NCBI GenBank assembly: GCA_027315345.1
Contig: DAHUYE010000008.1
Location: forward strand, 1 to 55,264
DNA: 55,264 nt
Origin: Actinomycetota bacterium
GTDB taxonomy: Bacteria; Actinomycetota; Acidimicrobiia; Acidimicrobiales; JAJPHE01
Direction of reading: 5' to 3'
The notes beneath the pieces were generated by a model that ran no database searches, was not told the DNA's origin, and saw only the letters and a list, made by a program, of their open reading frames with translations. Shown here piece after piece: positions 2,142-46,792 of the stretch (position 1 is the stretch's first letter; each line of letters opens with the position of its first letter). The translations under genes and the position numbers were made by a program.

Positions 2142-3620
2142 ATGAACACAGGCAGACCAGGGCAGGGCTCGATCAACCTGGATATGGCCGGCGTGGGGTC
2201 TCTCGGCCGCTGGCTGGCTGAGGGCAGCCTGAACAGCCGGAGCCTGGTCACGGCCTGCTTGGAGCGGATCGACGTCCGCGACCTTCCCTTTGGCGCCATA
2301 CGGATGATCGTGGACGATGCCGTGGCCCAGGCCGAGGCGTCGGACGAGCATCGACGTCGCCACGGCCCCCGCAGCCCCCTGGAGGGCATACCGGTCATCC
2401 TCAAGGACAACATCGACGTGGCCGGACTGCCGACCACGGCCGGCTCCCTGGCCCTGGCCGGATCGGTTCCGGACCGTGACGCCCATCTCGTTACCCGCCT
2501 GCGGGAGTCCGGCGCGGTCATCGTGGCCAAGGCCAACCTGTCCGAGCTGGCCAACTTTCTGACCGAAGGCATGCCGTCGGGCTATTCGTCGCTGGGTGGC
2601 CAGGTCCTCAATCCCTACGATCTCGCTCTCACCCCGAGCGGTTCGAGCAGCGGGTCGGCCGCGGCGGTGGCTCTGGGTCTGGCTCCCCTGGCGGTGGGGA
2701 CCGAGACGGATGGATCCATCATCAGCCCGGCTGTCCACCAGAGCCTGGTGGGGGTCAAACCGACCCTGGGTCTGGTCAGTCGTCGGGGCATCTTTCCCAT
2801 CGCCCCCAGCCAGGACACGGCCGGGCCCATGGCCGGTGGCGTGGCCGACGCCGCCGCTCTCCTGGCCGTCATGGCCGGGACGGATGCGGACGATCCGGCC
2901 ACAGCCGGGGCCGAGGAGACGGCTACGCGCCTGGGTTCCCTCCGACTGGATCCTTCGGTACTGAGCCGGTCCGGCCTGGGTCTGGTGGCGGTACGGGGGA
3001 AGGAAGGAGATGCTCCCTCCCGACCCTTGATTGAAGATGAGGCCGCCGCCCTGGAACGGGCCGGGGGGCACCTCCGAGACGTGGAACTGCCGGCCCAGAA
3101 CTTCGAGGATGAGCTCTTCGTCCTGCGTTATGAGTTCGCTCCGGCGGTGACGGCCTATTTCGCCGGGTGGCCGGCTTCAGGGGGTCCGCGCTCGCTGGCC
3201 GAGGTGGCGGCCTGGAACCGCGCTCATCCCGATGTGGCCCTCAAGTTCGGCCAGACCCATGTGGACGCGGCCTTGGCTATCGATCACACCGCCCAGCGGG
3301 ATGACTATCTCGAAGCCCGCCGGCGGGATCAGGCCGCCGCCGCGGAGGCTCTCGAGTCAGCCATGGCCGGCCTCGACGTGCTGATATTCCGGGGCGATGA
3401 GGGGGCGGGCTGGGCGGCCCGGTCCGGGTGGCCGAGCGTCTGTGTCCCGACCGGGTACAGCGCCCGATCCCGCCGCCCCCGCGGCGTGACCCTGGTGGGC
3501 CGGGCTTGGACCGATGACCACCTGCTGTCGGTGGCGGCCGGCGTCGAGGCAGCCTGTGGCCGCCGCCGGCCACCCAGCCAGATCAACCCGGCGGTGTTTC
3601 ACCGACTGAAAGGCTCCTGA
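2142..3620 (+). CDS. Amidase signature family hydrolase
   Basis: About 492 aa of the amidase signature (AS) family, Ser-cisSer-Lys hydrolases acting on amide bonds. Visible motifs are PLEGIPVILKDNIDVAGLPT with the catalytic Lys, LTPSGSSSGSAAAVALGLAP in the glycine/serine-rich signature, GTETDGSIISPA with the cis-Ser/nucleophile Ser region, and GVKPTLGLVSRRGI. The start is ambiguous: ATG at 2142 is listed, GTG at 2136 and ATG at 2184 are in frame, and none has a good ribosome-binding site. The tRNA-Pro fragment ends 10 bp upstream, so an island insertion may have replaced the native promoter. The substrate cannot be told; the branch lacks GatA-specific context. Confidence 0.85.
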   Translation: MNTGRPGQGSINLDMAGVGSLGRWLAEGSLNSRSLVTACLERIDVRDLPFGAIRMIVDDAVAQAEASDEHRRRHGPRSPLEGIPVILKDNIDVAGLPTTAGSLALAGSVPDRDAHLVTRLRESGAVIVAKANLSELANFLTEGMPSGYSSLGGQVLNPYDLALTPSGSSSGSAAAVALGLAPLAVGTETDGSIISPAVHQSLVGVKPTLGLVSRRGIFPIAPSQDTAGPMAGGVADAAALLAVMAGTDADDPATAGAEETATRLGSLRLDPSVLSRSGLGLVAVRGKEGDAPSRPLIEDEAAALERAGGHLRDVELPAQNFEDELFVLRYEFAPAVTAYFAGWPASGGPRSLAEVAAWNRAHPDVALKFGQTHVDAALAIDHTAQRDDYLEARRRDQAAAAEALESAMAGLDVLIFRGDEGAGWAARSGWPSVCVPTGYSARSRRPRGVTLVGRAWTDDHLLSVAAGVEAACGRRRPPSQINPAVFHRLKGS

Positions 3621-3623
3621 CCG

Positions 3624-4790
3624 TCAGGGCAGGATGTGGCCCCCGAGGGTCCACCAGGAAACGAGTCCGAGCCCGAGCGTGGACGCGGCGACCACGGCCA
3701 GGAAGGCCCGGCCCCGGAGGAAGCGGGCCAGGACCACGCCGCTCGGAAAGGCCAGCAGCAACATGCGGGGATTGGGGGTCAGCCCGGACGAACCGAGACA
3801 GGCCAGGGTGACTCCGAAGCCCCACATCAGGGCCCAGGCCGGCGGGCGGGTGTCGGCTCGGAGGATCAGGTAGCGGGTCCCGATCACGAAGGGAACCCCG
3901 AGCAGCCCGATGAGGAGATTGAGGTTCCGGCCTCCGAACTGCAGGTACAGCTCGTAGTGGTGCAGGGTGGCCAGGGGCGAGACCCGATTGCCCCAGAACC
4001 TGCACTGCGTCTCCATGACCGCCCAGGGGGAGCCGACCCGGGCCCACATATAGGCTCCCACCCCCGCCAGGCCCAGAGGGCAGAACAGGGGGGCGGCCAG
4101 GCATCTCAGCTCGGAGCGGTTGTCCCAGGCCCGGCTGCGGACGAGGTGGACCAGGGCCGCCACCGTCACAGCCAGTACCAGGACCGTCCCGTCAGCCCCG
4201 GTGGCTCCCGCTCCGGCGCCGAGGACCCCGGCCGCCAACCACCGACGCCGCTCCAGGGCCAGCATGCAGGCCAGGACCAGGGCGAGAAAGAGCCCGTCCG
4301 AGTAGGCCATGGAGAAGGCCACGGCTCCGGGGAACAGGGCGTAGAGAACCGCCGCCCGCCGACCGGCCTGATCGCCCCACCAGCTGCTGGTGAGCTGTTG
4401 GACCAACAGGGTGGAGACCAGGCCGCCGGCCCGGGCCAGGAGGAGGGCGGCCGGCAGAGCCGGCAGGGAGAACAAGGCTTGGATGGCCCGGATCACGATG
4501 GGGTAGCCCGGCATGAATCCGAGGGTGCTGGCCGCGTTCGGGATGGACGACGGGTAGCCGTGGCGGGCCAGGTTCAGGTACCACTGACCATCCCAGCGGG
4601 TCAGTTCGCCCGCCAGGGAGGCGTGGGTGAGGGAAGCCTCGATGCCGGCCAGGGTCAGCACCAGCAGCTGAGCCCCGCTGTAGGCCAGCAGGGCCGGTCC
4701 GAACCGGCCCAGGAGGGCCCCGGTCTGGATGGTCGCCAGGCGGCCGGCGCCGCGTCGCTCCTCCCGCAGGAGGAGGGCGGCTACCGCCAT
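3624..4790 (-). CDS. Multi-pass mannosyltransferase-like protein (PIG-V-like family)
   Basis: 388 aa, mostly hydrophobic, with roughly nine or ten membrane segments starting near residue 25. The early extracytoplasmic loop contains TRWDGQWYLNLARHGYP, the WDxxWY...GY pattern typical of PIG-V-like and related GT-C glycosyltransferases that use polyprenyl-phosphate mannose. A second conserved patch is LGFMPGYPIVIRA. A role in lipoglycan or protein mannosylation at the membrane is inferred from family membership. The gene is convergent with the amidase (3 bp gap) and divergent from the UbiB-type kinase gene. Confidence 0.7.
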   Translation of the reverse strand: MAVAALLLREERRGAGRLATIQTGALLGRFGPALLAYSGAQLLVLTLAGIEASLTHASLAGELTRWDGQWYLNLARHGYPSSIPNAASTLGFMPGYPIVIRAIQALFSLPALPAALLLARAGGLVSTLLVQQLTSSWWGDQAGRRAAVLYALFPGAVAFSMAYSDGLFLALVLACMLALERRRWLAAGVLGAGAGATGADGTVLVLAVTVAALVHLVRSRAWDNRSELRCLAAPLFCPLGLAGVGAYMWARVGSPWAVMETQCRFWGNRVSPLATLHHYELYLQFGGRNLNLLIGLLGVPFVIGTRYLILRADTRPPAWALMWGFGVTLACLGSSGLTPNPRMLLLAFPSGVVLARFLRGRAFLAVVAASTLGLGLVSWWTLGGHILP

Positions 4791-45175: not shown

Positions 45176-46792
45176 TCAGACCTTGTCCAGCTGGCGGCGG
45201 GCCTCGGCCCGGCGTTCGGACTCGAGGCGCTCCAGGGCCACCTCGGAGTGATCCACGTATCCCATGGCCCCGGCCAGGGCCCGGTGCCCGGCCTCATCGG
45301 CGATGAGGCGGTGCATTTCCTGGACCACGGCGCGGTAACCGGGGTGGCCCTGGGGCCCGGAGCGGAGCTCGAGGACGTGCATGGCCTCCCGGGCATTCAT
45401 CTGCATGGCGTATCGGACCCGGTAACCCAGGGCGATGGCGTAGGAGGCCTGCTCGGGGAAGTCATCGGCCAGATCGGCGTAGAGCTCGGCTGAGCGTTCC
45501 ATGGACTGGCGGTAGGACTCCTCGGCCTCCTCCCCGGCGTCGGAGACCTCGGCCGGCACGGCGTAGCCGTGGTCGGGTCCGAGGGACTGCCAGTCGATGG
45601 TGAGGAGGCGGTGGCGCTGCAGGTCCCGGAAGGCCCCGTAGTCGGACAGGACATCGAAGCGGTAGTCGGTGCGCTCCAGGGCCCGGCCGGGCCGGTGGCG
45701 GCGGTTGCCCCGCTCCCCCACATAGGTCTGCACCAGGCGGGCCCGGTCCTCGGGGCCGAGGCGGGCGACCCGCTCGGCCAGCTTGTCCTCGGGCAGGTCG
45801 GAGAAGGCGTAGAGCATGGCGGAGAGGACCTTCTCCTCTCCCCGGGGGTCGAAGTCGACCAGGCTGACCAGAGGCCGCTCGGCCTGGTTCTCGGTGAGCA
45901 GGAGCTCATCGGCCAGGGCCTGCATGGCCCCCCGGTTCTCCTCCATGTAGCGGCTCCAGGCCACCCCCCGGTCATCCACGTCGACCCGGCGCACGAAGGA
46001 CGGGATGACCTTGCGCAACTCCTCCAGCATCATGCCGGCGTAGTCCCGTGCCTCTGGCAAGGGGTGTGCCCGCATGCGGATGAGCAGCTGCTCGTAGCCC
46101 TGTCCGGTCCCGTAGATGCCGAGATTCGACAGAGAGGCGGCCGGCAGGAGCCCGCGCACCGCGTCCAGGGCCTTGGCCCGGATGGCCTGGCGGTGCACGA
46201 AGTCGGAGTCCCCGGCCTGGCGGGGAAAGGCCTCGGAAAAGTGGGCGTGCATGACGGGCAGCAGCTCGGCGTAGGAGTCGAACATCCGGTCCATCTCGCC
46301 CACGTACCGGGCCCCCAGGGGTGAGTCGAGGATGGCCGGGTCCCGGAAGTAGCGGTAGCGGCCGTTATCCAGCCGGGTGTCGTAGCCCACGTAACGGGTG
46401 GACTTCTCCATGTAGGACATGAGCCGGCCCCGCTCCAGGATCTTGGTGAGCAGGTTGGAGGCCTCCTCACAGGCCAGGTGGACCCCACCCAGCTGGGCCA
46501 CCGAGTCGTCCCCGTACTCGTAGAACACGCGGGCGTAGAGCTGCTCGGCCCGGGCCAGGCCCACGGTGGCGTCCACGGAATGGTCCCCGCTGATGTCCAG
46601 GTCCCCGACGAATTCATCCAGGAAGAGCCGGCGCAGGCTCTTGGCCGAGCGGGAGTAGCGGGCGAAGAGGGCACCCTTCACCACCTCGGGCAGATTGACC
46701 AGGGCGAAGACGGGGCGGTCGAGATTGGTGAAGTACCTCCGGAGTACGTCGGCCTCGTCCGGCGAGAAGTTCTCGACCACATAGGGATGCAT
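45176..46792 (-). CDS. Double-domain ThyX-like protein (FAD-dependent thymidylate synthase family)
   Basis: 538 aa, more than twice a single ThyX (about 220-250 aa). The N-terminal half has RGR-x7-S at 121-131 within ERGRLMSYMEKSTRYVGYD, i.e. the ThyX motif with His replaced by Gly. The C-terminal half has RHR-x7-S at 393-403 (RHRLLTIDWQS), with the His retained. The two halves look like a tandem duplication. ThyX makes dTMP from dUMP with FAD and methylene-tetrahydrofolate. Whether this protein does so is uncertain. A TACTGT hexamer lies 9 nt before the ATG. Confidence 0.75.
   Translation of the reverse strand: MHPYVVENFSPDEADVLRRYFTNLDRPVFALVNLPEVVKGALFARYSRSAKSLRRLFLDEFVGDLDISGDHSVDATVGLARAEQLYARVFYEYGDDSVAQLGGVHLACEEASNLLTKILERGRLMSYMEKSTRYVGYDTRLDNGRYRYFRDPAILDSPLGARYVGEMDRMFDSYAELLPVMHAHFSEAFPRQAGDSDFVHRQAIRAKALDAVRGLLPAASLSNLGIYGTGQGYEQLLIRMRAHPLPEARDYAGMMLEELRKVIPSFVRRVDVDDRGVAWSRYMEENRGAMQALADELLLTENQAERPLVSLVDFDPRGEEKVLSAMLYAFSDLPEDKLAERVARLGPEDRARLVQTYVGERGNRRHRPGRALERTDYRFDVLSDYGAFRDLQRHRLLTIDWQSLGPDHGYAVPAEVSDAGEEAEESYRQSMERSAELYADLADDFPEQASYAIALGYRVRYAMQMNAREAMHVLELRSGPQGHPGYRAVVQEMHRLIADEAGHRALAGAMGYVDHSEVALERLESERRAEARRQLDKV

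Follow-up and report, generated by a model that had tools for sequence, protein, structure and literature searches.

A fused double ThyX with complementary catalytic losses as the probable thymidylate synthase of an actinobacterium

The window, a stretch of 55,264 nucleotides from an Actinomycetota bacterium, carries on its minus strand an intact open reading frame of 538 amino acids (45176..46792; all features given below are on this strand) with two Thy1 domains. We think it probable that the protein is the organism's flavin-dependent thymidylate synthase, converting dUMP with CH2-tetrahydrofolate and NADPH into dTMP. Two thyX copies would have been joined, the halves then losing complementary catalytic residues, and the enzyme would operate as a dimer of pseudo-222 symmetry with two sites.

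The preliminary description, made from the DNA alone, saw two ThyX-like halves in tandem fusion, and this holds. The Pfam family Thy1 (PF02511) matches the protein twice, with an E-value of 3.9e-37 for the whole, and each half separately scores above the family's cut-off. The N-terminal half spans residues 1-290 (45923..46792), the C-terminal half residues 305-518 (45239..45880). AF2, run on the whole protein with 38 relatives, gives a pLDDT of 89.6 and a pTM of 0.88; the N-half modelled alone has a pLDDT of 87. Alignment with ThyX structures, which had been proposed as a check, gave matches for both halves. The C-half aligns structurally with T. maritima ThyX (Z ~16.4, rmsd 2.3-2.5 Å, ~190 residues), and the best structural match of the N-half is M. 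tuberculosis ThyX (Z 13.2, rmsd 4.9 Å, 202 residues); in both searches the next unrelated rows have a Z below 5. Each half, as modelled, is thus a ThyX fold. Both are strongly divergent, since the protein reaches only 56.9 bits against the NCBIfam thyX equivalog TIGR02170, below its cut-off of 87.9. A sequence search of the PDB with the single protein gave no match, and a family profile was required. An assembly artefact is ruled out as the origin of the fusion, because the same two-half architecture recurs in ~150 distinct sequences. A stand-alone degenerate paralogue was also considered and is ruled out, the protein being the genome's only Thy1 protein. As the profiles of the N-half and the C-half find no significant match in each other, a duplication cannot be distinguished from the fusion of two diverged ThyX copies.

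The halves can be read against the known ThyX site, which is made of contacts from three subunits, A, B and C (PMC6514825, M. tuberculosis numbering, here Mtb). Subunit A supplies Arg95-His96-Arg97 and Arg199, subunit B Ser71 and Arg190, and subunit C Arg87, Gln103, Ser105, Arg107 and Tyr108 (PMC6514825); these residue letters were confirmed at the same numbers in the 3gwc sequence. We placed the Mtb positions on the two halves by means of a profile alignment and of the strand and helix pattern of the model. Conservation was counted over 149 distinct relatives, window protein included, which are 39-78% identical to the latter.

Residues of role A are found in the C-half. It alone has the RHR flavin motif (R393-H394-R395, 45608..45616), present in 149/149. 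Further on, N466-x-R468 ... R477 (45362..45397) corresponds to Mtb N188, R190 and R199, and both R468 and R477 are fixed in all 149. The equivalent triplet of the N-half, R121-G122-R123 (46424..46432), is degenerate and reads W-G-R in most relatives: the Arg95 position holds Trp (90 sequences), Arg (57) or His (2), and the His96 position Gly in 144 of 149, Arg97 being retained in both halves. None of the N-halves compared has an RHR. Their residue at the Arg199 position is Met or Leu, in an alignment that could move by one here, Met240 being flanked by Arg239 and Arg241.

Most residues of role C, by contrast, are found in the N-half. Its active-site loop E129-K-S131-T-R133-Y134 (46391..46408) covers Mtb Gln103, Ser105, Arg107 and Tyr108, with Glu and Ser in 149/149 and Arg and Tyr in 148/149; in the C-half the last three positions drift among Pro, Arg, Ser and Ala, among Thr, Ser and Gly, and among Pro, Val and Thr, respectively. 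Similarly, R213 (46154..46156; Mtb Arg172, Arg147 in T. maritima, here Tm) is invariant in the N-half and replaced by Gln, Ser or Pro in the C-half. At Arg87 the N-half has Asn and the C-half Tyr. The source of role B is ambiguous in this bacterial family. Ser71 is matched by the invariant Ser (149/149) of YGDDSVAQ (residues 93-100, 46493..46516), which presents D, S and Q at Mtb H69, S71 and E74, the C-half having Arg at the Ser71 position; Arg190, however, is Gln in every N-half and Arg in every C-half. Neither half of this bacterial family retains the His that contacts folate (Mtb H69, Tm H53): it is D95 in the N-half and P368 in the C-half, where H366 lies close to the Tm H53 position, yet unaligned. 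With Asp in place of His53 and Asn in place of Mtb Arg87 in the N-half, the binding of folate and phosphate must differ in detail. T. maritima H53D structures (4kar and 4kas), comparable to the N-half Asp, came up in the structural search.

Over the 149 relatives, then, role-A residues sit in the C-half and most role-C residues in the N-half, never the reverse. Read from this alignment, the losses of the two halves are complementary and neither half is simply degraded, which contradicts the earlier idea of a fusion with one degraded half. The motifs on which that idea was built do exist, RGR-x7-S as R121-G122-R123-x7-S131 and RHR-x7-S as R393-H394-R395-x7-S403. S403, however, is not conserved (Pro in 75/149, Ser in 13/149), S131 and H394 being invariant. 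As to the persistence of FAD, dUMP and folate residues, the two halves together supply most of the FAD and dUMP residues but not the His that contacts folate.

Because the RHR motif with Arg199 and the loop come from different subunits in known ThyX, we infer that two 538-residue chains pair into a pseudo-222 tetramer. In each working site a C-half would contribute the RHR flavin motif together with the dUMP-activating Arg, and an N-half the E-x-S-x-R-Y loop for dUMP and flavin. The flavin contact made by a third subunit (Ser, with Arg or Gln) would most likely be provided by the N-half of the other chain. Since roles B and C belong to different subunits, and both would be held by N-halves, a site would need two N-halves, that is, two chains, plus one C-half. 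The two reciprocal sites would pair an N-half that lacks RHR with C-halves that lack the loop and would be dead, so that a dimer would have two active sites, not four. Should Arg468 of the C-half take role B in the bacterial family, there would still be two sites. The probable working form of the protein is a dimer with two active sites, and the intramolecular pseudo-tetramer imagined in the preliminary description gains support from this splitting of residue roles.

One might argue that the N-half is a pseudo-enzyme with a structural or regulatory role, the C-halves alone catalysing as an ordinary ThyX dimer or tetramer; R95 and H96 of the RHR motif as well as R199 are indeed lost there. Against this, the Ser105, Arg107 and Tyr108 positions are variable in the C-half and fixed in the N-half, and the one loss of the N-half loop coincides with the presence of ThyA and DHFR. 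We hold this explanation to be very unlikely. The coincidence comes from the genome G044, the only one among 59 of the order to have ThyA and DHFR, with thyA and folA adjacent on one contig. The reading frame of its double ThyX (L146) is open, but 26 of 127 near-invariant positions are changed, T132G, R133G and Y134S among them, and no other copy has lost Arg133 and Tyr134. A copy with 29 deviations (L145), in the genome G034 where ThyA has no match, keeps the RHR motif, R477, the E-x-S-x-R-Y loop and R213. That thyA entered the G044 assembly through contamination is unlikely and not supported by base composition: the two contigs have equal GC (63.7%) and a tetranucleotide correlation of 0.97. 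Decay of the loop in a genome endowed with ThyA supports a thymidylate synthase function in a suggestive way only, this being a single case rather than a statistical test.

The metabolic context points in the same direction. dTMP is essential. The window's genome, 97.7% complete, has no second Thy1/ThyX match, no ThyA, no DHFR and no thymidine kinase, which makes the 538-residue protein very probably the cell's thymidylate synthase. A normal thyX or thyA, together with loss of the dUMP-binding residues from both halves, had been named as what would speak against this function; there is no thyA and no second thyX, and substrate-binding residues persist. In the order, the fusion is present in 58 of 59 sampled genomes, a few copies being partial at contig ends. 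ThyA and DHFR are each absent from 47/47 high-quality genomes of the order, and thymidine kinase from 36/47. One genome (G032, 92% complete) yielded no ThyX, ThyA, DHFR or thymidine kinase, possibly owing to an assembly gap. Many organisms that use ThyX are known to lack both DHFR and ThyA; tetrahydrofolate is not oxidised by ThyX. A work entitled 'Life without dihydrofolate reductase FolA' is among those cited in PMC5954106.

The fusion is no oddity of one genome: it is present in nearly all of the order, it occurs in about 95 of 296 genomes sampled in the phylum, and remote versions exist in jumbo phages and Bacillus-type plasmids. In the phylum sample 103 genomes matched, of which eight gave weak matches to ordinary ThyX. 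ThyA matches above 200 bits were found in 43/296, and a single one of these genomes (G242) also has the fusion; near-complete ThyA thus occurs in 1 of ~95 fusion genomes versus 42 of ~201 without it. In G242 ThyA lies in two pieces 1 kb apart (C39:1968-2603 and 3602-3886), possibly because of an intron or insertion or because the gene is broken, and an intact double ThyX lies elsewhere in the genome. Nine genomes that lack the fusion gave no match in a profile search run without a positive control.

Two other unusual ThyX forms also turned up. In five genomes (G107, G096, G067, G129, G209) of families that otherwise carry the fusion, a ThyX-like protein of about 300 residues (L206-L210) replaces it. 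Its motifs run from THR and the active-site loop through L-E-P and T-x-x-D...QRC..AQPEIR to a C-terminal AARCARVSY and HWSPLEH, the latter two being N-terminal in ThyX (four of the five sequences were read). The order looks circularly permuted, and we found no paper on such a form. In yet another genome (G325) a ThyX gene (L205) is split right after RHRVGW by some 300 residues that start with CIAGDTEI and end with VVHN and look like an intein placed at the active site.

Further afield, tblastn aligns 82-95% of the query with sequences of phage Tunturi_5 (25% identity), of plasmids from Bacillus and Paenibacillus (21-22%) and of Parabacteroides, Euzebya and Miltoncostaea records (45-49%); Vibrio jumbo phages match at 23% identity over 62% of it. 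One of these records, from Parabacteroides distasonis (NZ_OY725790.1, L198, 45% identity), carries a double ThyX and may indicate that the family extends to Bacteroidota. An IMG/VR contig classed as viral (L195) also carries a double ThyX, with 51% identity. Among the remote relatives the N-half profile is significant only against N-halves and the C-half profile only against C-halves, so that the two halves must have been distinct already in the common ancestor. Phage and plasmid relatives of 21-25% identity show the same split: their N-half has E-x-S-x-R-Y, their C-half L-R together with R-H-R or R-H-N. In the Bacillus/Paenibacillus N-half, 'GHSSVAEH' still has its His, Ser and Glu, and N-G-R stands at Asn188/Arg190, the C-half having Trp at the Arg190 position; Tunturi_5 has Arg there in the N-half and Ala in the C-half. 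Such residues point to a B role for the N-half.

How does this protein compare with what is known? With ThyX, or FDTS (T. maritima TM0449, M. tuberculosis ThyX; PF02511), it shares the fold, present in both halves, the majority of flavin-site and dUMP-site residues once the halves are pooled, and a genome without ThyA and DHFR. The RHR motif and the dUMP-activating Arg174 of Tm (R477) are found in the C-half only, the Tm Ser88/Arg90/Tyr91 loop in the N-half only. It differs in that a single subunit of about 230 residues with all motifs is replaced by 538 residues in two fused, differentiated halves, each lacking part of the site, in that His53/69 becomes Asp, the folate-contact His being missing from both halves, and in that two active sites are predicted rather than four. 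With its motifs divided between two halves it ranks as a variant of ThyX, not as an ordinary ThyX. RefSeq proteins of 516-572 residues labelled 'FAD-dependent thymidylate synthase' (Parabacteroides distasonis, Euzebya, Miltoncostaea, Bacillus, Paenibacillus) have the same two halves and, where read, the identical motif split, although the annotation is silent on the double architecture; unlike the window protein, the Bacillus/Paenibacillus group retains His and N-x-R in the N-half. The phage profile PHROG 36506 'thymidylate synthase' (491 positions) matches the N-halves of three kinds of protein, that of the window and those of Tunturi_5 and the Vibrio phages; the kinship is remote, the phage proteins being 23-25% identical to ours. 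PolB, a UMP/dUMP methylase (4p5a/4p5b), has the ThyX fold in common with it but is a single-domain enzyme of an antibiotic pathway.

PolB brings to mind a protein that would (hydroxy)methylate another pyrimidine nucleotide, as PolB does UMP, and would not be a thymidylate synthase. The very divergent sequence, under the NCBIfam thyX equivalog cut-off, and the replaced His53 equivalent would fit. We nevertheless give this little chance: high-quality genomes of the order have no other thymidylate synthase and most have no thymidine kinase, whereas dTMP is needed, and phage and plasmid relatives lie near genes for making dUMP (in Tunturi_5 the double ThyX adjoins a dCMP deaminase and is near a dUTPase; on the Euzebya plasmid it is near dcd). 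For the same absence of another synthase, and with most FAD and dUMP residues present in the pooled halves, the different flavin chemistry suggested earlier finds no support.

The C-half also contains a family-conserved cluster, NRRHRPGRALE (residues 363-373, 45674..45706), with R370 at Mtb S71 and E373 at E74; R361, R364, R365 and R370 are invariant and have no ThyX counterparts. That all four sites work, the reciprocal ones relying on new residues such as these arginines (361-370), is most improbable, as no substitute is evident in the C-half for the Ser and Tyr of the loop, nor in the N-half for R95 and H96. It is less far-fetched, if still unlikely, that the dead sites of the two-site dimer have been repurposed, R361-x2-R364-R365-x2-P-G-R370-x2-E373 forming a pocket for another ligand, such as an allosteric site for dNTP or folate. 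If true, these bacteria would possess a self-regulating, asymmetric thymidylate synthase.

We found no paper in the open-access literature that describes a double or tandem ThyX or a divided site. The RefSeq label implies that automated annotation had already guessed the function. ThyX has been studied as a homotetramer and as an antibiotic target, each site common to three identical subunits. Here the subunit roles are split between fused halves, so that roles assigned from crystal structures may be tested singly, leaving the other copy unaffected. A thymidylate synthase can probably now be named for a large bacterial group, comprising the window's order and related classes, as well as for phages and plasmids, with an enzyme that, where tested (the window protein), falls under the cut-off of the curated thyX model.
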